From NCBI GenBank assembly GCA_947494145.1, contig CANLTZ010000012.1, positions 62,001-126,000 of the forward strand: a stretch of DNA of 64,000 bases, in the 5' to 3' direction. The position numbers and the translations under genes are program-made. Below the pieces are notes generated by a model. That model had not been told where the DNA came from. It did not search any database and saw nothing but the letters and a program-made list of their open reading frames with translations. The DNA comes from an uncultured Jannaschia sp. GTDB lineage: Bacteria > Pseudomonadota > Alphaproteobacteria > Rhodobacterales > Rhodobacteraceae. Of this stretch, positions 41,627 through 55,300 are shown piece after piece (the first letter of the stretch is position 1; the number at the start of each line of letters is the position of its first letter).

Positions 41627-42006
41627 GATGCGAATTCCTCCGATGGGCACCGGGATGCCATGTGAAATAGCGCGCCAGGGCACGTTGGTCAGGGCGGTAT
41701 GATGGCGGAAGCTGACGAATACCTGACGGGATACCTTGCCATGGCCTGGCGCACCTCCCCCCGACGCGGGCCTACGGGATGTTGCCGGGCCGGGCCGCCC
41801 GCCCACTCGCCTCAGACGCGAGGCAGCGCGCCGCAGATACCGATGCGCGGGAACATGCGTAAGCACCTGACTTACCGATACTAAGCGGAAGCTTGCCTGC
41901 ACTCAGATGCCCTGATTGACCAAGCATGCCAAGCCGGAAGGATCGATGGACCAGCGCAAACCAAGACCTGCGCGGCCAAGCGACCTACAGAAAGAAGATC
42001 CCCCAA
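41627..42006. other. 380-bp divergent control region between response regulator and RTX-pectate-lyase-like gene
   Basis: No gene is seen. It contains the CTGACG direct repeat (41712-41728) and a single CTGACT at 41867. GC drops around 41860-41900 (ACCGATACTAAGCG), where a promoter for the plus-strand gene could lie, but I could not match both -35 and -10 boxes. The gene to the right has only a weak ribosome-binding site (AAAGAAG). Confidence 0.45.
41712..41728 (+). promoter_or_regulatory. Direct repeat CTGACG-N5-CTGACG, candidate response-regulator site
   Basis: Exact six-base repeats at 41712-41717 and 41723-41728, 11-base period. It lies 86 bases upstream of the response-regulator start and 279 bases upstream of the plus-strand RTX gene, so it could serve autoregulation, activation of the secreted enzyme, or both. 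Confidence 0.55.
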
Positions 42007-45000
42007 ATGAACGACCAAATTTCAGGCAATGCGCCCGTCAAAGAAGCACGCTCCCACATCCTTGCCGATCCGCTCTTCAATGCTGCGGCACCGTCGGTCG
42101 GAACCCCGGACGCAGACACCCTGATCGGGACGGACGCAGCGGACGAGATAAGCGGCGAAGCCGGTCGCGACAGCATCACGGGCCTGGGCGGCGACGACAC
42201 GATTGATGGCGGCTCCCAATGGGACACGATCGACGCGGGCGCCGGGGATGACGTGGTCGATGGCGGGTGGGGCAGCGACAGCGTCGCACTGGGCGACGGC
42301 AACGACCTCTTCGAAGATAACGGACAAAACGACACCAATGGCCGCGATACCGTCGATGGCGCCGCGGGCAATGACACGATTGCCGGACTTGGCGGCGATG
42401 ACGTCTTTTTGGGCGGCGACGGCAATGACCAGATCTCGGGCGGCATCGGCGACGATGTCCTGGACGGCGGCAACGGGAACGACATTCTGGAAGGCGGCGA
42501 CGGGAACGACACGATCCGCGGCGGCAGCCAATACGACACGATAGATGCAGGCGCAGGCGACGACGATGTCGATGGCGGCAACGGGCGCGACAGCGTGCAG
42601 TTGGGCGATGGCAACGACATCTTTCGCGACAATGGCCAGGGCGGCATCCACGGGCTCGACTTCGTCGAGGGCGGCGCGGGCGATGACACGATCCTGGGCG
42701 GCGGCGGAGACGACACGTTCCGCGGCGACAGTGGCCGCGACGATATCTCCGGCGGCGACGGAAACGACGTAGTCGATGGTGGCAACGGCCAAGACCTGCT
42801 GACCGGCGGGGCGGGCGCCGATACCATCGACGGCGGCAGCCAGTACGACACCATCGATGCGGGCGACGGCGACGACGTGGTCTTGGGCGGCAATGGCCGC
42901 GACGATGTGCAGCTTGGCGACGGCGACGACATCTTTCAGGACAACAACCAGACCGGCACCCATGCGCTCGACACCGTCGACGGCGGCGCGGGCAACGACA
43001 CGATCTTGGGCGGCGGCGGCGATGACGACTTCGCGGGCGGCGCGGGCGACGACCAGATTTCGGGCGGCGCCGGGGATGACCTGCTGAGCGGCGGGGCCGG
43101 GGCCGACACGTTCGTCTTCGACACCGACGATGGCACAGACATCATCACCGATTTCGTCAGCGGCGAAGACGCAATCGTGTTCGAAGGCGTCGATGCGGGC
43201 TTCGCCGATCTTCTGATCCAAGATGCCGGGCCCAACCTGTCGGTCACCCTGGGCGACACCACGATCCAGCTGGAAGGCGTCGCCGCCGCCGATCTATCGG
43301 CAAACGATTTCGCCTTCCCCGATGGGACGCCTGTCAATGTCGACCCCGATGCCATCGTCATGCCCGACTTCGCGACCATCATCGACGTCGCCGATTTCGG
43401 CATCATTGCAGATGACGGCATCGACGACACCGCCGCCATCCAGGCCATGCTCGATACCACCGACCGCAGTACATATTTCTTCTCGGACGGTGTTTATGAT
43501 ATCTCGGACACGATCATCATCCCCGATGGCCGCGGCACCTCCGTCCCTAGTTTCGTAACCCTTCAGGGCGAAAGCGAAGACGGCACCGTCTTCAAGCTGG
43601 CCGACGGGCTGGACCACCAAGGCCCGATCTTCGGCTCCGAGGGGAATGTGGCGCAGGCCTTCAACAACCGCGTCCGCGACCTCACGTTCGATATCGGCAC
43701 CGGCAATCCGAACGCCACGGGCCTGCAATTCGCGGGCAACAACCAATCCACCGTTAAGGATGTCACCATCCGGTCAGAGGATGGCGGCTCAGTGGGTCTG
43801 GACCTGGCCAGCCAATCTCAATTCGGCCCCGCCTTGATCGAAGACGTCACGGTGGAGGGGTTCGACATCGGAATCTCCATGGCCATTCAGGTCAACAGCG
43901 TCACCTTGGAGGATATCGATCTGATCGGCCAGGAAACCGGCATTGTCAGCACCCTGGCCCATGTCGCCTTCCTTCGCGGCATCGACTACGACGGCGCGGG
44001 CGTCGCCGTCGACAATGACGGCGTGTCCCGGATGCTGCTGATCGACAGTGATCTGCGATCATCGGACCCGGGCCAAGCTGATCAAGTGGCCATCGAAAAC
44101 GGCTTCTCCCTTTACGCATCCGATGTCGCCGTCACCGGCTTCGATACGTCCATCGAATACACAACGAACAATTTCCTGGGCAACCGGCTCGAATCGAGCG
44201 GCGATGTTGACGAATACTGGGCCTTCGGCGACGCGCCCACCGCACGCGGCGGCACGTTCCAGCTGTTCGACAGCCCCGAAACCGGCCTTGGCCTGGACGT
44301 TCGGGAAACGCCTGAGACAGTCTGGAACTCCAATGTCGGCACCTGGGTCGATGTGCGCGATTTCGGCGCCGTCGAGGGCGAGGATGCGTCGGCGGCATTC
44401 CAGGCCGCCATCGATTCCGGCGCCACCACGGTCTACGTCCCCGACGGGTTTTGGACCCTCGAAAGCGAGGTTGTGCTGCGCGGCAATGTGGAGCAATTCC
44501 TGAGCGCAGGCTACGCCAGGACCGCGCCGGGCTCGGTGTTCCGCATCGCCGAGGGTGCCTCCGACCAGATCATGATCGAGGGCATCCACGGTCCCATGAA
44601 CGGCCGCGATGCGACGCTCTTCCTGCATGACAGCGACCGGACCGTGGTCATGCGCGACATGGCGGCCACGCGCTATGAGGCCGTCGCCGATGGCGAGCAG
44701 GGCGATGTCTACCTGGCCAATGTGACGGGCAAACACATGTCCTTCCACGACCAGAACGTCTGGGCCCGCCAACTCAACGTCGAAGGCGACAATGCAGAGA
44801 CCGGCATCGAGGCGAAGGTGCTCAACGATGGGGCCGCCGTCTGGATAATGGGGCTGAAGACCGAAGATCCCGGCACAGTCGTCAAGACGATCAATGGCGG
44901 CCAAACCGAATTGATGGGCTCCTACCACAACGGCCCCGTCGACGTTTCCATTCCCCGCTTCATCACCGAAGATGCGAGCTTCTTCACAACCATTGTCGAC

Positions 45001-45573
45001 GGCTCCACCGCCTCGCAAGACTTCGATCTGGTGCGCGAAACCCGCGACGGCGTCACGCGGGAAGGCAACATCAAGGAAAACAACAATCGCGGCGACGCCT
45101 ATTCCGCCTTCGATCCCGCGGTCATCGCCGACCGGGTCATCATCGTCGACAATGACGATGCCTCGACCACGGGCACCTGGCAAAGTGCCACGTCCTTCCC
45201 GGGTGGCTTTCTGGGCGGTGACTTCCTGTTTGCCCAAGGCGACAGCGGTGCAAGCATCGAATACAGCGCCACCGCCGTCGCGGCGGGCAGCTATACGGTG
45301 TCTCTGCGGATAATCGACGAACGCGGCGGCCAACCCAACAGCGGACATAGCCGCGAGGTCGATGTCGAATTCGGCACGGATGACGATGTCTTCGTGTTCG
45401 AGGATGTGGACTTACGGACTGTCGAAGGCCCGTGGCTGGATCTCGGCGTGATCGAGGTTGCCACCGATGGCCAGATGTTCGTCCGCCTCGACACCGATGG
45501 CGTCACCGGCAACGTGATCGCCGACAGCGTGCGCTTCGAACGGCTGGAGCCGGAGGATACCCTCCTGGGCTAA
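42007..45573 (+). CDS. Large RTX protein with two pectate-lyase-type beta-helix domains and a golvesin-like domain
   Basis: A 1188-residue exported protein. Residues 30-370 are GGxGxDxLx calcium repeats with recurring GGSQYDTIDAGDGDD variants; 370-440 is the module that normally ends RTX proteins (GADTFVFDTDDGTDIITDF). Then come two pectate_lyase_3/GH28-related segments (VADFGIIADDGIDDTAAIQA at 457 and VRDFGAVEGEDASAAFQAAI at 780) in parallel beta-helices, and a golvesin-like beta-sandwich (from about 1043, IVDNDDASTTGTWQ to ADSVRFERL). The secretion-type module is internal rather than terminal, an unusual order. It may degrade or bind an acidic polysaccharide. ATG 42007 is used; an ATG 81 bases upstream is possible. 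Confidence 0.85.
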   Translation: MNDQISGNAPVKEARSHILADPLFNAAAPSVGTPDADTLIGTDAADEISGEAGRDSITGLGGDDTIDGGSQWDTIDAGAGDDVVDGGWGSDSVALGDGNDLFEDNGQNDTNGRDTVDGAAGNDTIAGLGGDDVFLGGDGNDQISGGIGDDVLDGGNGNDILEGGDGNDTIRGGSQYDTIDAGAGDDDVDGGNGRDSVQLGDGNDIFRDNGQGGIHGLDFVEGGAGDDTILGGGGDDTFRGDSGRDDISGGDGNDVVDGGNGQDLLTGGAGADTIDGGSQYDTIDAGDGDDVVLGGNGRDDVQLGDGDDIFQDNNQTGTHALDTVDGGAGNDTILGGGGDDDFAGGAGDDQISGGAGDDLLSGGAGADTFVFDTDDGTDIITDFVSGEDAIVFEGVDAGFADLLIQDAGPNLSVTLGDTTIQLEGVAAADLSANDFAFPDGTPVNVDPDAIVMPDFATIIDVADFGIIADDGIDDTAAIQAMLDTTDRSTYFFSDGVYDISDTIIIPDGRGTSVPSFVTLQGESEDGTVFKLADGLDHQGPIFGSEGNVAQAFNNRVRDLTFDIGTGNPNATGLQFAGNNQSTVKDVTIRSEDGGSVGLDLASQSQFGPALIEDVTVEGFDIGISMAIQVNSVTLEDIDLIGQETGIVSTLAHVAFLRGIDYDGAGVAVDNDGVSRMLLIDSDLRSSDPGQADQVAIENGFSLYASDVAVTGFDTSIEYTTNNFLGNRLESSGDVDEYWAFGDAPTARGGTFQLFDSPETGLGLDVRETPETVWNSNVGTWVDVRDFGAVEGEDASAAFQAAIDSGATTVYVPDGFWTLESEVVLRGNVEQFLSAGYARTAPGSVFRIAEGASDQIMIEGIHGPMNGRDATLFLHDSDRTVVMRDMAATRYEAVADGEQGDVYLANVTGKHMSFHDQNVWARQLNVEGDNAETGIEAKVLNDGAAVWIMGLKTEDPGTVVKTINGGQTELMGSYHNGPVDVSIPRFITEDASFFTTIVDGSTASQDFDLVRETRDGVTREGNIKENNNRGDAYSAFDPAVIADRVIIVDNDDASTTGTWQSATSFPGGFLGGDFLFAQGDSGASIEYSATAVAAGSYTVSLRIIDERGGQPNSGHSREVDVEFGTDDDVFVFEDVDLRTVEGPWLDLGVIEVATDGQMFVRLDTDGVTGNVIADSVRFERLEPEDTLLG

Positions 45574-46217: not shown

Positions 46218-47275
46218 ATGCGGGCCCGCGACATGTCCAGCGTTTCCAATACGGTCTCAGCGGCTTCCAAGGCCCCTTCGATATAACCCCCGAACTGGGC
46301 GGCCACCTCCGTCCCTGCCAAAAGCAGCCGTCCCCCCCAAAGATTGGCCATCTCGCGCGGCAGCCCATAGGTCGGGTGGGTGTAAAGCGGCGCCTTGTCC
46401 GCATCCGTCGAGGTATGGGGGTCAAAGGCCCAATCCTTGATCAACAGATGCCGCGGCGCCCCGGCCCTGGGCCCGAACAACCGGGTCAACTGGGCCAACA
46501 GATGGGTGCGCAGACGATTTTCATCCGCCCGCCCCCCGGGCGGGACACCGATGAAGCCGAACAGGGCATAGGGGCCGCCAGTCGCGGGCGACGCATCGTG
46601 GATTTCGACCATCGGCCCCACACGGCTCATGGCGTCGCCCGACAGGCCCGCGTCGCGCCAGAACGGCTGGTCATAGACCGCCACCGCCTTGGCCTGCCCC
46701 GCCATCCAGGTGGGGATGTTGCGCATGGCGCCCACGACCGGGTCCGGCAGGGTGGGCGCATAGGTCAGGCGGGCGGCCACGCGCGGCGGCAGGGCCAGAA
46801 CCACCCGATCCGCGCTGAGCCTCTCACCCCCCGCCAGGGTCACAACGCAGCGCGCACCCTCATTCTCGACCCTGGAAACCGGCGCAGCCAAGCGCTTCTT
46901 GGCGTCGGGAAGGTGGTCGGCCAGGGCACTTGTCAGCGCGGCCAAGCCACCCTCAAGCCGCCAGGATCCTTCCATCGACGCATGGCCCCTGCCCCGCTGC
47001 ACCTGCCCGCGCTCATCCTCGAACAGCAACGCCCCATCGGAAAACTGGTCGAACGTCGTCAGGCCCAGACGCGCGATCAACGCCGCGATGCGCGGCTGCC
47101 CCGGCCAAAACCAGGCGGGCCCCATATCGTAATAGCCCGCCCCATCCCGTTCGGTCTTGATCCGTCCGCCAAAGCGCGGTCGCGCCTCGACCAGCAGGTA
47201 ATCCTGTCCCCGGGCTTCCAACCGTTCGGCCAGCGCAAGGCCGGACAGCCCGCCGCCCACAATAAGCACACTCAT
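46214..47275 (-). CDS. FAD-dependent amine oxidase (flavin monoamine oxidase type)
   Basis: A 353-residue flavoprotein. The N-terminal dinucleotide-binding motif [17 protein letters not shown] with a following [11 protein letters not shown] is the amine-oxidase fingerprint; the C-terminal [20 protein letters not shown] is the matching FAD block. It is shorter than classic MAO (about 450-500) with a reduced substrate domain. Substrates of such proteins include amines and polyamines; none can be named. ATG 47275 overlaps the cupin stop. Confidence 0.87.
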
Positions 47276-47940
47276 GTGGCAGGTGCTTTGGCGTAGCGCA
47301 AATGGCCGGTCTTGACCCAGACCTTTGCGCCCTCGGGTCCCGCTGTCGCCGACAAGCCCTGCCCGTCGGGCAAGCGCAGCCACGCCCCCTTGCCAAGCGT
47401 CTCGCCGCTTTCGCTGACCGACCCGTCAAGGACAAGCATCTCGCTCCCGCCGATATCCGCGTTGTCGAGCGTGGCACCCGGCGCAAGATGGCTGAAGGTC
47501 ACCGTCTCGCGGCTATCTCGGTGCAACTCAGCCGTGGCCACGCCGTCGACCGGCGCAGCCAACGCCTCCGCCATGTCCTTTCGGAACTGGTTCCGGTCGT
47601 CCATGTCGAACTGCCAGAGCTTCACAAAAATCGTGCAGCCCGGTGCCGATCCTGGCGTGTGCGACGTCGTCGGCGGGTTGCGGACATAGGTGCCCACTGG
47701 ATAGTCGCCATGCTCATCCTGGAACACGCCGTCCAGCACGATGAATTCTTCGCCGCCCGTATGGGTATGCGCCGAGAACGTGCTGCCGGGCGCGTAGCGC
47801 ACGATGGTCGTGGCGCGCGCCACTTCGCCGCCAATCCGGTCGAGCATCCGACGGTCCACGCCCGGCATCGGGGACGCAATCCAGTCGATCTGCTCTGAGT
47901 GGATGACCACCCGCTCCGAAAAGTCGGCATTCAATTCCAC
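47272..47940 (-). CDS. ChrR-type double-cupin protein
   Basis: A 222-residue protein with two cupin-like repeats (residues 30-115 and 125-215). The first keeps a metal site ([14 protein letters not shown] and a later His in TTSH), as in the C-terminal cupin of the anti-sigma factor ChrR, which responds to singlet oxygen and oxidised lipids. The ChrR zinc-binding N-terminal anti-sigma domain is absent, so it is not itself an anti-sigma factor. The start codon is GTG with AGGA upstream. First gene of the cupin-amine oxidase-TetR operon; an oxidative-stress role is a reasonable guess. Confidence 0.8.
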
Positions 47941-48237: not shown

Positions 48238-48627
48238 CTATGCCGGGCGCTGCACCGCCACGAAATGTGTGACGACGCCTTCGCTGCTCCAGATGGGTCG
48301 CAATTCGCAGATATGTGTGAAGCGGGTTCCGTCCCGGCGGTAGTTGGTGATCCGCACCAGACCAGCTTTGCGCTCGGCGATCAGGGCCTGGAACCGAGCG
48401 ACGGCCTCGGGTTCGGTTTCGGGCCCTTGCAGAAATGACAGACTGCGCCCCACGGCGTCTGATTGACTGTAGCCCGTATGCGCCTCGAAGGCGGGTGAGA
48501 CATAGATGACCGGCGTCCCTGCCGTGGCGAGGCAGATGACCGAAGACGCCTCGGACATGTCGTCGGGAAGCGCGGCATCGTCTTGCGCGGCGACGAAGGT
48601 GTCGAAGGTGCTGAACTGTTTAGCCAT
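48238..48627 (-). CDS. LOV-like PAS domain protein lacking the photoactive cysteine
   Basis: A 129-residue single PAS domain with strong LOV resemblance: TPVIYVSPAFEAHTGYS, then GRSLSFLQGPETEPEAV where LOV proteins have GRNCRFLQG, NYRRDGTRF and VVTHFVAVQ. The flavin-adduct Cys is Leu63 and the preceding Asn is Ser62, while Asn95 and Gln126, which contact the flavin ring, are kept. Cys-less LOV proteins can still signal through flavin photoreduction, or act as redox or non-light sensors. There is no output domain; the partner is probably the XRE regulator whose gene overlaps by eight bases. ATG 48627 was chosen as the first codon outside that gene's core. Confidence 0.82.
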   Translation of the reverse strand: MAKQFSTFDTFVAAQDDAALPDDMSEASSVICLATAGTPVIYVSPAFEAHTGYSQSDAVGRSLSFLQGPETEPEAVARFQALIAERKAGLVRITNYRRDGTRFTHICELRPIWSSEGVVTHFVAVQRPA

Positions 48628-49054
48628 CGTGCTCGCCCGGGTTGCGATGTCGAGGGGGCACGAGTGTTTCGACCAGCTGCACAAGCCGCAGCTTACCCCC
48701 CCGATCTTCCATGCGAACGAAGGCGCTGACCAAACGGGAAAGCAGATCGGCCTCATTGGCCAGTTGCGTATCTGGGTCGATCTCACCCGGTGTTGGTGTT
48801 TCGACCGGCAGCAGGTCGTTGATGTGGACGCCGTAATGCGCTGCCAGCTTTAGCAGATAGGGCAAGCTGCACTTGCTCTGGGCGTCTTCGTATTTCTGAT
48901 ATTGCTGCGGGCTGACAGAGATGATGGACGCAACCTGCGCCTGGGTCATTCCGCGGGCGACACGCAGGCCCCGCAGCCTGCCGCCGACATAGCGATAAAC
49001 GCAGTCCATTTCAGGCGGAGCGGTATCCGTTATCAAATTCCGATCTTCGAGCAT
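48620..49054 (-). CDS. XRE-family helix-turn-helix regulator
   Basis: A 144-residue regulator. An XRE/Cro helix-turn-helix covers residues 22-80 (LRGLRVARGMTQAQVASIIS, then SPQQYQKYEDAQSKCSLPYL). The C-terminal 60 residues are helical and charged (LLSRLVSAFVRMEDRGGKLR). ATG 49054 has GAGG seven bases upstream; an ATG four codons earlier is possible. It is translated with the LOV-like PAS protein, which suggests that the PAS protein modulates its DNA binding. It is divergent from the kinase-phosphatase-BLUF row. Confidence 0.85.
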   Translation of the reverse strand: MLEDRNLITDTAPPEMDCVYRYVGGRLRGLRVARGMTQAQVASIISVSPQQYQKYEDAQSKCSLPYLLKLAAHYGVHINDLLPVETPTPGEIDPDTQLANEADLLSRLVSAFVRMEDRGGKLRLVQLVETLVPPRHRNPGEHDG

Positions 49055-49322
49055 ACCGGTCCTCATGCGGTGATCTTTCGCGGACGGGTCACCCCGTCAC
49101 GTCCAGCAGCATAGGACCGGCAGCACTCGGAAAGTGAGGAAAAATCAGGGCAATTGCCGTAACGTCCGCCCATTTTTCGACATTCTGCGCCCGGGCGGTT
49201 CTGAAATGCCCTGGAATCGCCCCCGTCCAGCGGCATTCGCCTGCGTTCCGTCCATAATTTCGCCTGAAAAGAGGTGTTTCTCAAAAAACGAGATAGCCGT
49301 CGCGTTAACGAGAGAACCGATT

Positions 49323-51266
49323 ATGAGTGCCGAGTCCCAGAAGGCCCCTGCCACGCCCTTTTCGGAGCACCTCCCCGAGGGCACGGAGCTGTTGCTTGGG
49401 CAGTACCGGATCACGAAATACCTGAACTCCGGCGGGTTTGGCATCACCTATCTGGCGGTCGACAGCCTTGAGCGGACAGTGGTCGTCAAGGAATGTTTCC
49501 CCGGGGCGTTCTGCCGTCGCGACGGCCTTCTGGTTCAGGCCCGCACGCAACAGCATGTGGCCGAGCTTGAGGCTGTGGTGGGGCTGTTCCTGCGCGAGGC
49601 CCGCGCCTTGTCGAAGCTGCAACATCCCAACATCGTCGGCGTGCACCAGGTCTTCGAATTCAACAACACGGCCTATATGGCGCTCGACTTCATCGAGGGG
49701 CGTGACTTGCTCCAACTGGTGAATTCGCCAGGCCGATCTCTCACGCCACGACAGATACGCTCAATTCTCGAAAAGCTGCTCAGCGCAGTCGGTGCCGTGC
49801 ACGAGGCCGGGTTGCTGCACCGCGATATCTCGCCCGACAATGTCATTGTCACCGCCGACTACGACCCGATCATGATCGACTTCGGCGCGGCGCGTGATCA
49901 GGCAACGAAGGCGACGCAGGCCCTGTCTGCCCTTCGGGTGGTCAAGGACGGATATTCCCCGCAGGAATTCTATCTTGCAGGCAGCGGCCAGGGCCCTTTC
50001 AGCGATCTCTACTCGCTGGCGGCAACCTTCTATCACGTGATCACCGGCGAAGTGCCCCCAGACAGCCAGCGTCGCCTTTCGGCCCATGTGGCGGGCGATT
50101 CCGATCCATATATCCCCCTGCGCGAAAAGACCTCGGCCTACGATGTCGCGTTCTGTGACGCGCTCGACCGCGCAATGGCGATCCTGCCCAAGGACCGTAT
50201 CCAGAACGCCGAGACATGGCGCCGGATGATGAACGAAACGCCCGAGCCGAAGAAGCGGTCCTCGCTGATCAACCGCTCGGTGCCGATTGCCATCAGCAAG
50301 CCGCGCACCGGTTCCACCACGCCCGCCGCGTCGCGGCCCACCAAGCCTGTCGCCACCCCGACACCGAAACCTGCGCCCAAGGCCAAGGCCAAGGCGGCAT
50401 CGAAGCGCGGCAAGGCCCCACTGATGCTGGCAGGCGCCGCGCTCGCGATGGTGGCAGCGGGCGTGTTCTTTGCCCCACAACAGGACGAAACGGCCGCAGT
50501 GGCGGTCAATCCGGGTCCGACAGGCGTGGCCGACACGGCCATGGCGACCGCCGATGCGACAGCCACCGACGCCCCCCTAGCCGAACGCGGCGAACCAGTG
50601 GCGGATGCCGCCGCCGTTGCTTCGCCCGACCCATCGCCGCTTCCGGCGCTTGCACCTTTGCCATCGGACGCGCCCAACGCGCTGGATGATCTGCCCGGCG
50701 ATCTGGCCGACGGACGCGTGACGCTGAACTGGCATGTCACCGCGCCGTTCTCGGTCGATGCAGATGGCATCGTGACGGACGTGTCCGGCCCGCAAGCCGG
50801 GCCCATCGCGCCCGGCTGGCAAGTGACCGAGATCGGCGGCGTGCCGTTCGATCCCTCGGTCGAGTTGGATGTGGCGCTGCGCGCGGCCGCGCATTCCGAA
50901 GACGGCCGCAGTGCCACCATCCTTGTCGCGGCGACCTCCCCTGGCGATGCCGCCACCACGATCAGCCGGGTCGAGGCCCCGCTGACCTACAAGGCAAGCA
51001 TTGGCGCGGACCTCGAAGTCGAAACCAAGGCCCAACGCGACGGGTGGCAAAGCCATGTGGTCGCCGCGCCATCCACCAGCGCGCTGCGCGCGGGCGACGA
51101 AGTGGTGGCCATTGTGGGGACGGGTGACCGGCTCCAACGCGGGGACGCCATGGCGCGCGCCGCCGCTGACGGTGTCGAAGCCAATTCCAGTGCCCTGAAA
51201 GTCGCGGTGCGCCGTGACGGATTGATGTGGTCCGCCGATCTGCCGCTGCCTGCGGCCCAGGACTGA
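49323..51266 (+). CDS. Transmembrane Ser/Thr protein kinase with periplasmic PDZ-like repeats
   Basis: A 647-residue Hanks-type kinase. Kinase domain about 27-300: glycine loop NSGGFG (35-40), Lys56 (VVVKE), Glu92, HRDISPDN with Asp168, and DFG at 186-188, all intact. A Pro/Ala/Lys linker (310-360) leads to one membrane segment (363-382). The outside part (about 480-640) has two PDZ-like repeats (GWQVTEIGGVPFD and LRAGDEVVAIVG). It would phosphorylate cytoplasmic targets in response to a periplasmic or membrane cue. ATG 49323 is used; the frame is open further upstream without kinase features. First gene of a six-gene row with a PP2C phosphatase. Confidence 0.9.
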   Translation: MSAESQKAPATPFSEHLPEGTELLLGQYRITKYLNSGGFGITYLAVDSLERTVVVKECFPGAFCRRDGLLVQARTQQHVAELEAVVGLFLREARALSKLQHPNIVGVHQVFEFNNTAYMALDFIEGRDLLQLVNSPGRSLTPRQIRSILEKLLSAVGAVHEAGLLHRDISPDNVIVTADYDPIMIDFGAARDQATKATQALSALRVVKDGYSPQEFYLAGSGQGPFSDLYSLAATFYHVITGEVPPDSQRRLSAHVAGDSDPYIPLREKTSAYDVAFCDALDRAMAILPKDRIQNAETWRRMMNETPEPKKRSSLINRSVPIAISKPRTGSTTPAASRPTKPVATPTPKPAPKAKAKAASKRGKAPLMLAGAALAMVAAGVFFAPQQDETAAVAVNPGPTGVADTAMATADATATDAPLAERGEPVADAAAVASPDPSPLPALAPLPSDAPNALDDLPGDLADGRVTLNWHVTAPFSVDADGIVTDVSGPQAGPIAPGWQVTEIGGVPFDPSVELDVALRAAAHSEDGRSATILVAATSPGDAATTISRVEAPLTYKASIGADLEVETKAQRDGWQSHVVAAPSTSALRAGDEVVAIVGTGDRLQRGDAMARAAADGVEANSSALKVAVRRDGLMWSADLPLPAAQD

Positions 51267-51292
51267 CCAGACGAGACGACGGAGGACATTAG

Positions 51293-52264
51293 ATGCGCAG
51301 AACATCCGAGCCCCGCTTCGATGTGGCGACCGTGACCGATTGCGGCGCGCGTCCCTATCAGCAAGACGCACTCGTTGCGAACTTCTCCACCGGCGAAGAG
51401 ATCGGCATCGGCGTCCTGGCTGACGGGATGGGCGGGCATGATGGCGGCGATGTCGCCAGCGCGCTCGTCGTCGGCCGCGCCTTCGCCGAAATCCGCGCCG
51501 GTTTCGCCTCCGGGGCGACGGGCGCGGTCAAAGTCGGGCCGGTCTTGCGCGAAGCCGTCGATGTCGCCAACGACGCCGTCCGCACCCGTATCGAAGCCGA
51601 CCGGAACCTGCGTGGCATGGGCTCGACCCTGGTTGCCTGCCTGACCATCGGGCCGGACCTGCACTGGGTCTCGGTCGGAGATTCGCCGCTCTACCTCGTG
51701 CGCGATGGCTTGCTCGAACAACTCAACGAAGATCATTCGATGCGCCCCCAAATCGAAGCGATGGCCGCCACGGGCATGATCGACGCGGAACTGGCGCGGA
51801 ACCACCCGGACCGCAATCAACTGCTGTCCGCGATCTGCGGACGCGCAATCGACCATGTGGATTGCCGGGACACCCCCTTCGCGTTGCGCCTGGGCGACGT
51901 CGTGATCGCCGCCAGCGACGGGCTCCAAACACTGAGTGACGATGAAATCCGCCGGATCGTGGCAAGCAACCGCCAGGCCTGCGCGACCGACATCGCCCAG
52001 GCGCTGATGCAGGCGGTCAAGAAAGTCGCGCTGCCCGATCAGGACAATGTCGCGATCATGGCCATCAAGGTCCTGTCCGATCGCCCTTTGCGCACGTCTG
52101 AGCCCCTGCCGCGCGCAGAGATGATTGCGCCTGCGCCCGCGGCAGAAGAACCCGCCGTCTTCGACGCAGTTCCCATCGACGATGCGCCCAAGCCCCCTGA
52201 CGCGGCACCGGCAGAAAGCCTTGAACGCGCCCCCGACGACCTAGAGCGGGCGCTCGCGCTTTGA
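51293..52264 (+). CDS. PP2C-family Ser/Thr phosphatase
   Basis: A 323-residue PPM phosphatase, residues 8-245. Metal-binding motifs are visible: RPYQQDA, GVLADGMGGHDGGDVAS, LHWVSVGDSPLYLVRDG, GDVVIAASDGLQTLSD and the final DNVAIMAI. A Pro/Glu/Asp-rich, probably disordered tail follows (250-323). It should reverse the phosphorylation made by the kinase encoded 26 bases upstream. GGAGGA precedes the start. The pairing of a Hanks kinase with a PP2C enzyme is common; the pairing with a BLUF gene downstream is not. Confidence 0.92.
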   Translation: MRRTSEPRFDVATVTDCGARPYQQDALVANFSTGEEIGIGVLADGMGGHDGGDVASALVVGRAFAEIRAGFASGATGAVKVGPVLREAVDVANDAVRTRIEADRNLRGMGSTLVACLTIGPDLHWVSVGDSPLYLVRDGLLEQLNEDHSMRPQIEAMAATGMIDAELARNHPDRNQLLSAICGRAIDHVDCRDTPFALRLGDVVIAASDGLQTLSDDEIRRIVASNRQACATDIAQALMQAVKKVALPDQDNVAIMAIKVLSDRPLRTSEPLPRAEMIAPAPAAEEPAVFDAVPIDDAPKPPDAAPAESLERAPDDLERALAL

Positions 52265-52313
52265 TCGCGCCCGTCCGAAACCCTCAGATCCAACCCATGA
52301 GCAGGATAGCCGA

Positions 52314-52526
52314 ATGATTGTCTACTCCCACCGCTTCTCCAGCGTCCTTCAACAGCTGGTGGTCGAGCTTGGTCTCGACCTCATCCTTTCTGACGGGACT
52401 TCACCGGTCAGCCTGAAGGAAAACGAGATGATGCTGCACGACGTGGCCAACGGCCTCGGCATTGACGTCAAGAAGCTGGCCGCCGCCGATGGCAGCGTCC
52501 TGTTCAAGTTCCAGCGTCGGGCCTGA
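52314..52526 (+). CDS. Small unrecognised protein in the kinase-BLUF row
   Basis: A 70-residue protein, predicted alpha/beta and acidic (LQQLVVELGLDLILSDGTSP, MMLHDVANGLGIDVKKLAAA). No membrane segment, no family recognised. It lies 50 bases after the phosphatase gene; its TGA overlaps the next ATG (TGATG). The position suggests an adaptor or substrate of the kinase-phosphatase pair, which is inference. Confidence 0.6.
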   Translation: MIVYSHRFSSVLQQLVVELGLDLILSDGTSPVSLKENEMMLHDVANGLGIDVKKLAAADGSVLFKFQRRA

Positions 52527-53143
52527 TGACAGCGAAGCCACAGATATCGGACGGTGCAGGCACAGGCGCACGGGTCGGCGTCCCGCTCGCGCGGGCGCAA
52601 CGGCTTGCCGCACGATCCACGACGCCGCAGGGAAAGCCACGGCTTCCCGCGATACTCATCGGGGTCGCGTTCACGGGTCTTGTGGCTGCCGGCATTTTCG
52701 CGCCAAGGCACGCCTCGGACCCGTCCGTCCCCGCCGATGGTCTGGTGGCTGTGGCGGACACCGCGCTCGCATCGTCGGAGTTCGCGGACCTGCCGCCGCT
52801 CGCCGCGCCGCAGCCCACCTCCCGCGCCCGCTTCGTCCCCTGCGTGGGCCGGATCGAAAATCAACTCAGGGTGCTGGCCGGGCCGACCGCGTCGCCGGAC
52901 GGCGGGACCGAACCTTCGGACCAATTGTCGTCCCTCGTCCAAAGCACACTGGATTGCCGCGAGGCCGGGCTTGAAATCCAAGGCAGCCTTGAACTCGTCA
53001 CCGCAGGGATCGCCGACCTCCGCGTGAGGTGGGACCGTGACACCAGCCGATTGTACTTGAGCGTCATCGATCCGCGCGAAGCCGCGGAAACACAAGCCGC
53101 CTTTGCCGAAGACGGATTGCCGGTCACGTTCGTCGTTCACTAG
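52526..53143 (+). CDS. Unrecognised single-pass membrane protein in the kinase-BLUF row
   Basis: A 205-residue protein. A basic, Ser/Thr-containing N-terminus of about 38 residues precedes a membrane segment (LPAILIGVAFTGLVAAGIFA, residues 40-59), then a Pro/Ala linker and a folded periplasmic domain (about 100-205, CVGRIENQLRVLAG to LPVTFVVH) with two cysteines. The cytoplasmic tail could be a kinase target. Family unknown. It overlaps the previous gene by one base. Confidence 0.6.
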   Translation: MTAKPQISDGAGTGARVGVPLARAQRLAARSTTPQGKPRLPAILIGVAFTGLVAAGIFAPRHASDPSVPADGLVAVADTALASSEFADLPPLAAPQPTSRARFVPCVGRIENQLRVLAGPTASPDGGTEPSDQLSSLVQSTLDCREAGLEIQGSLELVTAGIADLRVRWDRDTSRLYLSVIDPREAAETQAAFAEDGLPVTFVVH

Positions 53144-53157
53144 AGAAAGGTTACAGA

Positions 53158-53580
53158 ATGGATTTTCCCGAATATCTGAAGTCCGCCTCGGACTGGGTCG
53201 CTGCGGCAGGCCCCATGCTTTCCTCTGCACGCGACTGGTCCGTCGAGGCTAGCAGCTGGCTGCTGGCAGTCGATCTGCCCGTGCCGGATATCGCCCTTGT
53301 GGGTGCCTTCGCCTTGGCTGTCGCGGCGACGACCTTGTCGCAGCGTGGCCGCAACCAAGCCGCACAAGGCGAAGTCGAAGACCTGTACCGCGCCGAATTG
53401 CTGACCGCGAACCGCCGCGCCCAGCAAGCGCGGGGCGAATTGCGCCAGGCCAAACAGGCCATCGAGCGTGAACGCCAGAAGCGCCGGCGGGAGGCCGCGG
53501 GCTCCAAACCCCATGCCCGCCTCAAGAACCGTCCTATCCAAATGCGTCGACCCGACGACCGGATCGCCGCGACAGCCTAG
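53158..53580 (+). CDS. Membrane-anchored coiled-coil protein in the kinase-BLUF row
   Basis: A 140-residue protein. A hydrophobic segment (VPDIALVGAFALAVAATTL, about residues 41-60) is followed by a long charged helix of coiled-coil type (EVEDLYRAELLTANRRAQQA to QAIERERQKRRREAAG, 70-115) and a basic tail. Not recognised. AGAAAGG precedes the ATG. A scaffold role under the membrane would fit. Confidence 0.58.
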   Translation: MDFPEYLKSASDWVAAAGPMLSSARDWSVEASSWLLAVDLPVPDIALVGAFALAVAATTLSQRGRNQAAQGEVEDLYRAELLTANRRAQQARGELRQAKQAIERERQKRRREAAGSKPHARLKNRPIQMRRPDDRIAATA

Positions 53581-53626
53581 TCACCGACCCTTCCCATTCC
53601 TCAAATCTCAGATCGGATAAAGACCC

Positions 53627-54040
53627 ATGAACCTCACCCGTCTCGTCTATTACAGTCAACGCAACCCGTCGCTGTCGCTCAACATGGATGAGCTGCTCGC
53701 CGTCTGTCAGCGCAATAATGGCCCGATGAACGTCACCGGCATCCTGCATTACAATGGCAACTATTTCCTGCAGGTCCTCGAAGGCGGTCGGGCCGAAGTC
53801 AGCGCGATCTATCACCGCATTGCCGCAGATCCCCGCCACATCAACATCATCCTGATCTCTTGCCAGGACGTGCGCGAACGGATCTTCCCCACCTGGTCGA
53901 TGGGCCTGCATGAAGGCATGGACGAGGAAACGAAGAGCATCTTCCTGCGGTACTTCCCGTCCAACAACGTCAACCCCGAGGCCGTGAGCACGGATAGTCT
54001 CCTGGATTTCCTCCAGGATGTGTCCTCCGAGCTTACCTAA
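53627..54040 (+). CDS. BLUF-domain blue-light sensor
   Basis: A 137-residue short BLUF protein. The flavin-site residues are all present: Tyr8 (RLVYYS), Asn35 (NVTGIL), Gln49 (FLQVLEGG) and Trp90/Met92 (PTWSMG). In BLUF proteins blue light rearranges the Tyr-Gln-flavin hydrogen bonds and changes the C-terminal helices, here residues 105-137 (EAVSTDSLLDFLQDVSSEL). There is no output domain, so it must act through a partner. It is the last gene in the kinase-phosphatase row, 46 bases after the coiled-coil gene, and is followed by two hairpins. Confidence 0.93.
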   Translation: MNLTRLVYYSQRNPSLSLNMDELLAVCQRNNGPMNVTGILHYNGNYFLQVLEGGRAEVSAIYHRIAADPRHINIILISCQDVRERIFPTWSMGLHEGMDEETKSIFLRYFPSNNVNPEAVSTDSLLDFLQDVSSELT

Positions 54041-54060
54041 ACCGGTGGCCAGCGTGATTG

Positions 54061-54086
54061 CCCGCGTTCCGCTTGTGGAACGCGGG
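54061..54086 (+). terminator. Ten-pair hairpin after the BLUF gene
   Basis: CCCGCGTTCC (54061-54070) and GGAACGCGGG (54077-54086) pair perfectly over the loop GCTTGT, 20 bases after the BLUF stop. No T run follows, but position and strength favour a 3' end or termination role. Confidence 0.65.
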
Positions 54087-54131
54087 GCTGATCCCAATGC
54101 CGAGGGGGGTGTCTTTGCGATGCGGTCTGGA

Positions 54132-54180
54132 CGGGTGTCGCACCTGCTGGCTCAACGCCTTCGCAGGTCGACGACACCCG
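54132..54180. other. Second long stem-loop between BLUF and LacI genes
   Basis: CGGGTGTCG (54132-54140) pairs with CGACACCCG (54172-54180), and inside it ACCTGC (54142-54147) pairs with GCAGGT (54163-54168): 15 pairs with a one-base and a three-base bulge, 15-base loop. It could terminate the opposing LacI transcript or be part of a small structured RNA. Confidence 0.5.
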
Positions 54181-54280
54181 CGCCATGGCGGTGGCCATCG
54201 TCAGGTTTGGGCAGGTCAGCGCGGGCACTCTGCCCTCCCGCGCCGCAACGGCGCCGTGAGTTGGCCTGGCGCAATGCGGG

Positions 54281-55300
54281 CTATGTCCACAGATGCGAGG
54301 CGCGCAGCAACGGCGTTGGCCGGATCTCGTGATGCTCAAAATCGCCCGTTTCGCTGCTGTCTCGGAAAAGACGGCGGATCACCACTTGGCTCAGCAGGTG
54401 GGCCACGCGCGCATCCTCGGTCGAAAACGTCGAAAGCGGGGGGGCGGTATGTTCGGACCCCGGAAAGTTCTGCCCACCGAAAACCGTCAGGTCGCGCCCC
54501 ACAATCAAGCCTGCCGCGGCAGCGGCGCGGTAGACACCGAAAGCCAGCGAATCCTGGATGCACGCAAAGGCGGGCCGGTCACGTCCGGCCAGGATGCGCG
54601 CGGCCACATCTGTGCCCGCCGCCTCGGTCATTTCCACCCGCCAGACCTTGGGCCCCGGCGCGCCTGACCGGGCGGCTTCTTCCACCGCGCCAGCCACGTA
54701 ATTGTCGGCGAAGTTCAGACCCTCCGGCGCGCTCAGGACATGCAGGCCCCCGGCCGTCACGGGCTTGAGCGTGCTGACGGCAAGGCGGCCCGCCTGGGTA
54801 TAGTCGATCTCCACCGTTGGGTGTCGATGGGACCAATCCGTCTTGCCGAAGGTGACGAAGGGAAAGCCGTGATCCAGCAGGAACTTGACGCGCGGGTCGG
54901 CCTTGCGCGTGCGGCCCAGCACAAGGGCATCGGCCAGGCGTTCCTCCACGATCTGGCGCACGATATCGACTTCTTCGTCGCGGGCGCGGGCGGCAAAGAC
55001 GGCCAGGTTCAGGCCCTTGTCGCGCAGGTGCTGGTCGAGGGTGGATAGTAATTCAAGAAAGATCGGAGAGGCGAAACGCTGTTGCGGCGGCGACAGCAGC
55101 ACGGCCACGCGCCCCGTCTTGCCCCCGCGCAGGGCGCGGGCGGCGGCATTGGGGCGATAGCCGTAGCGATCCGCCAGGTCGCGCACGGCCACCCGTGTCT
55201 CGGCCCGCACCCGCGGGTCACCACGCAGCGCGCGGGACACGGTGGACACATCCACCCCCAACTCCACCGCCAGCGTTTTCAATCCGATCCGTTTCTGCAT
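54281..55300 (-). CDS. LacI-family transcriptional regulator of the glycoside cluster
   Basis: A 339-residue LacI/GalR protein. The helix-turn-helix is residues 5-27 (IGLKTLAVELGVDVSTVSRA) with the hinge helix after NAAARALRGGKTG. The periplasmic-binding-like domain follows (VAVLLSPPQQRFASPIFLEL to SHLWT). It is divergent from the GH31-ABC transporter operon, and a perfect LacI-type operator lies 58 bases upstream of its start. It should repress the operon until a specific oligosaccharide binds. Confidence 0.92.
   Translation of the reverse strand: MQKRIGLKTLAVELGVDVSTVSRALRGDPRVRAETRVAVRDLADRYGYRPNAAARALRGGKTGRVAVLLSPPQQRFASPIFLELLSTLDQHLRDKGLNLAVFAARARDEEVDIVRQIVEERLADALVLGRTRKADPRVKFLLDHGFPFVTFGKTDWSHRHPTVEIDYTQAGRLAVSTLKPVTAGGLHVLSAPEGLNFADNYVAGAVEEAARSGAPGPKVWRVEMTEAAGTDVAARILAGRDRPAFACIQDSLAFGVYRAAAAAGLIVGRDLTVFGGQNFPGSEHTAPPLSTFSTEDARVAHLLSQVVIRRLFRDSSETGDFEHHEIRPTPLLRASHLWT

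Follow-up and report, generated by a model that had tools for sequence, protein, structure and literature searches.

A candidate light-signalling cassette built on a PixD-type BLUF protein in Rhodobacteraceae, joined in one lineage by a Ser/Thr kinase and a PP2C phosphatase

To our knowledge, signalling by short BLUF proteins is understood for few partners, PixE and Fur among them. Among the closest described systems is that of Synechocystis, in which PixD acts through its separate partner PixE (PMC5899715). Here we describe a locus in a 64,000-nt stretch of DNA from an uncultured Jannaschia sp. (contig CANLTZ010000012.1; "the window" is this stretch at full length, and coordinates are given on its forward strand). 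It holds a short PixD-type BLUF gene together with genes for a 70-residue protein (P70), a transmembrane OmpA-like protein (P205) and a transmembrane protein with a coiled-coil-like tail (P140). On balance, we read these four as the core of a light-signalling cassette that was joined in one lineage by a Hanks-type Ser/Thr kinase and a PP2C-type phosphatase. The window BLUF resembles PixD (Slr1694) in being short and in having a homologous C-terminal extension and the Tyr8/Asn/Gln network. PixE, however, is response-regulator-like and serves phototaxis, whereas the BLUF protein here is accompanied by a 70-residue protein and two transmembrane proteins, with the kinase and PP2C in one lineage, and a Pfam search of the row proteins found no receiver domain that would mark a PixE-like partner.

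AppA-PpsR of Rhodobacter sphaeroides, from the same bacterial family, also takes light input through BLUF, but AppA carries a further domain of its own and the solved AppA entries are distant from the window BLUF (E 1.3e-8 or weaker). Escherichia coli has the BluF-BluR system (PMC5899715). There, as here, small proteins go with the BLUF input, YcgZ being one of them. Unlike BluF-BluR, the present row has no EAL domain and no MerR-type regulator, and P70 gave no Pfam match to such a small-protein family. We know of no P70-type cassette for BlsA of Acinetobacter, which we set apart by its description and without sequence comparison. BlsA is likewise a short BLUF protein that works through separate proteins, including Fur (PMC5955987). 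A LOV-like gene and a regulator gene, divergent to the row, recall the LOV protein LdaP, which has a transcription regulator as its target (PMC10890935). In the window PAS protein, however, the adduct Cys of DsLOV and LdaP is Leu, the histidine-kinase-like domains of LdaP are absent, and the regulator is of the XRE type rather than PpsR.

The BLUF protein and its conserved companions

At the level of sequence, the parts of the cassette are present, intact and conserved in their linkage. A contig scan with a BLUF alignment returned 28 loci, 27 of them from the subfamily (60-90% identical to the query) and one, L098 (34%), a distant relative that was excluded from the locus counts. Together with the window and the loci of genomes G187 (L069) and G378 (L109), and with duplicate genomes removed, this gave 30 distinct clade loci. 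Using profiles built from the first five members, we found P70 beside the BLUF gene in 28 of the 30 loci, P205 in 29 (in L079 as an N-terminal fragment only, E 5.5e-5) and P140 in 29 (some matches weak, down to E 3e-4). The co-occurrence of the three small proteins with BLUF, raised in the initial annotation, was therefore borne out. P70 was missing in L087, where the contig ends, and in Jannaschia rubra (L092).

Because these loci had been collected by their BLUF genes, we also ran the reverse search with the P70 profile. Family genomes with a match numbered 8 of 394, and the sole match among 289 class genomes was the window's own; all eight family genomes had a BLUF gene and a P205/OmpA gene no more than 1.5 kb away. 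A family-wide search of 248 genomes found BLUF in 85 and P70 in 5, each of the five P70 matches lying within 1.5 kb of a BLUF gene. As a control, 31 BLUF-centred loci (the window's own and 30 high-scoring ones, with 1.5-kb flanks) were scanned, and P70 was present in five clade members and in 0 of the 26 other loci. In the genomes searched, P70 was found solely beside this BLUF; a plasmid search gave no P70, and its BLUF matches were without exception below 60% identity.

Two subtypes can be distinguished, with the J. rubra locus outside both. Subtype I comprises 21 loci (Tateyamaria, Sulfitobacter, Litoreibacter, Nereida, Marivivens, L087, G187 and G378), in which the BLUF gene is convergent to the other three genes and most loci have flanking gene families in common (in L069 and L070, by eye, pyk, rplT, pheS and pheT), in a comparison that rests on crude gene calling. 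The eight loci of subtype II come from the window, Yoonia maricola, Yoonia litorea, a Silicimonas metagenome-assembled genome (MAG), Actibacterium, J. pohangensis, a Shimia MAG and an uncultured Rhodobacteraceae bacterium. These eight have hardly any flanking genes in common, a single flanking family recurring (in L071 and L097), and the BLUF gene is collinear in five and convergent in three. Given the nearly unshared flanks and the two orientations, the subtype-II set seems to have been kept together through repeated moves.

The BLUF protein is the only one found in its own genome. Its closest solved proteins are PixD (Slr1694), matched with E 3.3e-22 over residues 1-133, and also Tll0078. 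Residues Y8, N31, Q49 and M92 are invariant in all 30 aligned rows, and W90 is present in 29 of them (an alignment that includes L098 and omits G378); Y8, N31 and Q49 correspond to Tyr8, Asn32 and Gln50 of PixD (PMC5899715). Apart from the PixD-like extension, no other Pfam domain scored above cut-off, in keeping with the earlier statement that this protein has no output domain. It is very likely a working photoreceptor, of which FAD binding and a red shift in light would be expected. Across genera, the BLUF protein is 87-90% identical to its orthologues in L071-L073, compared with 32-40% for P205 and about 45% for the kinase, and from these alignments BLUF and P70 are the most constrained members of the cassette.

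The Y-x-H-R and LGL motifs of P70 are invariant in 26 rows. NCBIfam gave no match, and in none of the 26 members was the best Pfam match better than 0.06. Its predicted fold is alpha-beta-alpha-beta-beta (predicted local distance difference test score 85.5). Among the window proteins, P70 and P205 had no Pfam match and P140 had none above cut-off. The P205 relatives in L069 and L070, of subtype I, match Pfam OmpA at 6.6e-11 and 2.3e-9, respectively, and a profile-profile comparison (hhalign) of P205 with the intact group gave 98.2% probability and E 6e-14. With one transmembrane stretch and a C-terminal OmpA-like domain, subtype-I P205 is similar to membrane-anchored OmpA-domain proteins of the YiaD, TssL and MotB type; the window protein differs from these in having lost the GHxD signature. 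The full GHxD...SWxR signature is found in 20 of the 21 subtype-I loci (the exception being L079, whose P205 is the N-terminal fragment) and is gone in the window and the seven other subtype-II loci. In the structural model of the window P205, the C-terminal domain is confident and the N-terminal half poorly predicted. Through its relatives, the protein is nevertheless recognisable as degenerate OmpA-like, so that of the three unrecognised small proteins proposed before, two of them membrane-anchored, the anchoring of P205 and P140 agrees with their predicted transmembrane stretches but P205 no longer counts as unrecognised. Second transmembrane/OmpA-like copies lie beside the cassette at L109:5456-6787 (G378), where a second P140-like gene follows, and at L086:10989-11780.

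Layout of the locus and the eight-gene set

All six plus-strand open reading frames of the kinase-to-BLUF row are present and uninterrupted (Table 1), and both the frames and the Pfam matches agree with the initial annotation of a row with a complete transmembrane kinase and PP2C that ends in an intact short BLUF. The gaps are, in order, 26 and 49 bp, an overlap (P70/P205), 14 and 46 bp, none exceeding 49 bp; given these short gaps, a single transcript is plausible as a prediction. The PAS gene overlaps the 3' end of the XRE gene (stop at 48620), and both are divergent to the row, as had been noted; the distance from the XRE start to the kinase start is 256 bp. We placed the kinase start by eye at its best ATG, with a GTG at 49134 as a possible alternative. 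One candidate transmembrane stretch was found by hydropathy in each of the kinase, P205 and P140; a simple hydropathy and charge rule, rather than a dedicated predictor, places the N-termini of the kinase and P205 inside and their other ends in the periplasm, and the P140 tail inside. A promoter and terminator scan of 48900-54300 gave one and three sites, respectively, which is the chance level, and in the window neither Rfam (gathering scores) nor a tRNA scan yielded a match.

Table 1. Features of the locus, with positions on the forward strand of the window
Feature	Position	Strand	Evidence or remark
LOV-like PAS protein, 129 aa, adduct Cys replaced by Leu (GRSLSFLQ)	48238..48627	-	PAS_9 5e-14 (Pfam)
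XRE-type helix-turn-helix regulator	48620..49066	-	HTH_31 1.3e-10; 54-59% identical orthologues beside the row in L071-L073
Operator-like inverted repeat TCTCAAAAAACGAGA	49279..49293	strandless	29 bp 5' of the kinase ATG; weak evidence
Transmembrane Hanks-type Ser/Thr kinase, cytosolic kinase domain	49323..51266	+	Pkinase 2.3e-25 (Pfam)
PP2C-type phosphatase, 323 aa	51293..52264	+	PP2C_2 1e-8 (Pfam)
P70, 70-aa protein	52314..52526	+	Constant partner of this BLUF subfamily
P205, 205 aa, one transmembrane stretch and degenerate OmpA-like domain, predicted periplasmic	52526..53143	+	
P140, 140 aa, one transmembrane stretch and basic coiled-coil-like tail, predicted cytosolic	53158..53580	+	
Short PixD-type BLUF photoreceptor, 137 aa	53627..54040	+	BLUF 3.5e-26 (Pfam)

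By eye, the kinase has the VVVKE (Lys), HRDISPDN (HRD) and DFG motifs, and its transmembrane stretch lies at about residues 367-385. Its C-terminal region is predicted to be periplasmic and PDZ-like; the PDZ match (4.5e-5) was obtained with the orthologue L067, and the window kinase itself gave none. The phosphatase has the metal-site motifs DGMGGH, GDS, SDG and DQDN, again by eye, and matched an Stp1-type model at 9.3e-41, a score under that model's cut-off. Elsewhere in the same genome, at G000:C21:8058-8966, lies a paralogue of this kinase, with 58% identity across the kinase domain and an open frame of 740 aa.

Apart from the window, 3 of 29 clade loci showed relatives of the kinase, PP2C, XRE and PAS genes, for a total of 4 of 30 with the window included. 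These eight-gene loci, in the window, Y. maricola, Y. litorea and the Silicimonas MAG, have different surroundings, and their BLUF proteins form one clade (support 98/94). Identity to the window in the other three is 71-81% for P70, 54-59% for XRE, 54-58% for PAS, 49-54% for PP2C, 45-46% for the kinase and 32-40% for P205. The recurrence of all eight genes in three other genomes puts the arrangement beyond chance, and because the surroundings differ and the kinases are only about 45% identical, the set has been kept over long times. The kinase link is thus real as a gene association in one lineage, going by these genomic comparisons. The proposed conservation of BLUF beside the kinase row therefore holds in these three genomes but does not extend past 4 of the 30 loci.

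Counted at E 1e-30, and with four candidates per genome scored, kinase relatives occurred in 54 of 248 family genomes, and we found no association with BLUF across these 248 (22 of 85 BLUF genomes vs 32 of 163 others, p=0.26). In the 22 genomes with both, the two genes adjoined only in the window's genome and the Silicimonas MAG. Among 30 kinase loci viewed with 1.5-kb flanks, 5 had PP2C next to the kinase, and two of these 5 were this row. The claim that the kinase/PP2C pair is the core partner of BLUF could not be upheld on these counts.

Two genomes of the window's genus carry the BLUF loci of J. pohangensis and J. rubra in identical form (L075 = G684 and L092 = G685, respectively). Despite this genus placement, the window BLUF groups with those of Yoonia and Silicimonas in the tree. 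At E 1e-30, this BLUF is present in 3 of 20 genus genomes, and G310, the sole genus-mate in the P70 genome search, gave no P70 match. The tree placement and the sparse distribution in the genus, along with the flanks, suggest horizontal transfer of the eight-gene set.

The divergent PAS-XRE pair

The best solved matches to the PAS protein are entries named as blue-light photoreceptors (E 3e-19), which we take to be the short LOV protein of Dinoroseobacter shibae, DsLOV. However, GRSL replaces GRNC in all four copies (the window and L071-L073; pattern GRSL(S/A/K)(F/I)LQ), and the protein lacks the GxNCRFLQ motif with adduct Cys that defines LOV membership. Some of the LOV flavin-contact positions appear by eye to be kept and others changed. 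With Leu at the adduct position in every copy, the protein is not a canonical LOV photosensor, and in that sense the second flavin photosensor of the initial annotation is rejected.

A fifth XRE-PAS pair (50% and 52% identical), also with GRSL, was found at L130:7779-8556 (G153:C5), where neither a kinase nor a BLUF gene was present in the 17 kb read. On the strength of this pair, XRE-PAS looks like a separate unit that was joined to the kinase row. Divergent to the G153 pair is a small gene that by eye is roadblock/LC7-like.

We lean towards control of the row by XRE-PAS, while control by light through this pair appears quite improbable. As a candidate operator, the pattern TCTYRN5YRAGA, which is its own reverse complement, has one match per gap in the four divergent gaps and no further match in those four sequences, TCTCAAAAAACGAGA being its single match in the window. 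Across 20,000 shuffled sets it never reached as many as 3 gaps, but it had been derived from these same sequences. An unbiased search for palindromes (arm length 5, loops of 3-8) ranked a different word first, at 5 mismatches, a score that 7 of 150 shuffles attained; for TCTYRN5YRAGA the score was 6 mismatches, attained by 55 of 150. For ungapped words, the best shared 10-mer, TTTCTCAAAA, which overlaps the inverted repeat in the window, had 3 mismatches vs 4 for the best of 20 shuffles, and shared words of 12 to 20 did no better than the best shuffles. With the palindrome test non-significant, a shared operator in the divergent gaps is not established and is kept only as a lead.

Just past the XRE-PAS pair, at 47272-47940 of the window, is a gene for a ChrR-type cupin (Cupin_7, 3e-43). 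ChrR-like cupins are singlet-oxygen sensors. Further on, at 41926-45573, a 1215-aa open reading frame has RTX-like Gly/Asp repeats in its first part and by eye possibly encodes a secreted polysaccharide-active protein.

Proposed working, alternatives and meaning

The contacts, the direction of signalling, the target proteins and any effect of light on phosphorylation are what we infer from these parts. The cytosolic BLUF protein would bind or release P70 according to blue light, as PixD does with PixE, a contact that we infer because of this analogy and because P70 is a constant, strongly conserved companion. P70 would then hand its state to two inner-membrane proteins, P205 and P140, which may carry the light state to the cell envelope or anchor it there. 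In the window's lineage, this state would most likely be merged with an envelope signal in a kinase/PP2C phosphorylation switch, with expression probably controlled by XRE and the Cys-less LOV-like PAS protein, perhaps a redox sensor. Action of BLUF through P70, P205 and P140 is likely in our judgement, and an effect on the output of the kinase or phosphatase is doubtful. Equally tentative is a fuller version, in which P70 is the adaptor through which BLUF gates the transmembrane kinase and PP2C, so that blue light and an envelope signal at the kinase's PDZ-like periplasmic end would give one Ser/Thr phosphorylation decision, and in which the kinase-free form would act directly on the peptidoglycan-anchored membrane proteins.

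Several results weigh against the cassette as a light-signalling unit with a kinase arm. Being present in only 4 of the 30 clade loci, kinase and PP2C are dispensable to the BLUF cassette. The BLUF gene of J. rubra (L092:9001-9411) stands without P70, P205 and P140. The adjacency in subtype I is, judging by its flanks, largely one inherited event at one chromosomal site. Moreover, the P70 model had no significant match among structures (the best, a SepF-like protein, reached a non-significant E of 0.07), and Foldseek gave no significant match for the window P205 model, to OmpA or any other structure. It could be held that the adjacency is a relic of ancestry without functional meaning, as the common site of most subtype-I loci would allow. 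We consider this very improbable, as eight further loci have almost no common flanks, two orientations and divergent partner sequences, and, in the genomes searched, no P70 turned up elsewhere than beside this BLUF. A more serious alternative, to which we give somewhat less than even weight, ties BLUF to P70, P205 and P140 only and makes the kinase-PP2C pair an independent envelope-signal phosphorylation unit that shares a transcript and regulator with them in four genomes, its activity untouched by BLUF. In its favour, the pair was not found in 26 of the 30 loci (two of them, L080 and L087, with contigs of just about 5 kb), a family-wide association is lacking and the genes rarely adjoin; against it, all eight genes persist in four loci of one clade whose surroundings differ and whose kinases are only about 45% identical.

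A role for two photosensors, in which BLUF gates the kinase and PP2C while the LOV-XRE pair switches the operon by light, is also rather improbable. The eight genes are co-conserved, the LOV protein LdaP is an antirepressor of PpsR in D. shibae (PMC10890935), and LOV-like regulators that naturally lack the Cys react to chemical reduction or photoreduction (PMC4682037), all of which would fit. However, Cys is replaced by Leu in the four PAS copies and in the fifth XRE-PAS pair, the C61A exchange in LdaP, a canonical LOV protein, abolished the photocycle (PMC10890935), and the shared operator is not established. Regulation of anoxygenic photosynthesis by the cassette would agree with the presence of PufL/M (PF00124) in 20 of 27 P70-bearing genomes vs 100 of 248 family genomes (Fisher p=0.0009, kinship ignored; the 27 are the sum of 11/11 and 9/16, exclude L087, in which P70 is cut off, and L097, and share five genomes with the 248). 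BLUF genes are, however, generally enriched in phototrophs, with PufL/M in 48 of 85 BLUF genomes vs 52 of 163 others, and in the window's own genus PufL/M is present in 14 of 20 genomes and this BLUF in only 3 of 20. We regard such a role as improbable. A strict tie of the cassette to anoxygenic photosynthesis, raised by 11 of 11 genomes and by J. rubra, which lacks both, was rejected because 7 of 16 cassette genomes have no PufL/M, namely those of five Litoreibacter, S. noctilucae and a Sulfitobacter MAG.

The cassette of BLUF, P70 and membrane proteins is the more robust finding, compared with the kinase link. Among the papers listed in searches of open-access literature, subscription journals and preprints not being covered, we found no description of it; a BLUF gene is named in two genome papers (PMC3910544, PMC4770636), whose passages on it leave the neighbouring genes aside. 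Two of the four eight-gene genomes, Y. maricola DSM 29128 and Y. litorea DSM 29433, are those of deposited strains, which makes the question directly testable, and BLUF-P70 could serve as a new adaptor pair in optogenetics. Being compact, conserved and equipped with a small partner family of its own and two envelope proteins, the cassette offers a concrete new partner candidate for short BLUF proteins, and the four kinase-bearing genomes may represent a natural link between light and bacterial Ser/Thr phosphorylation.

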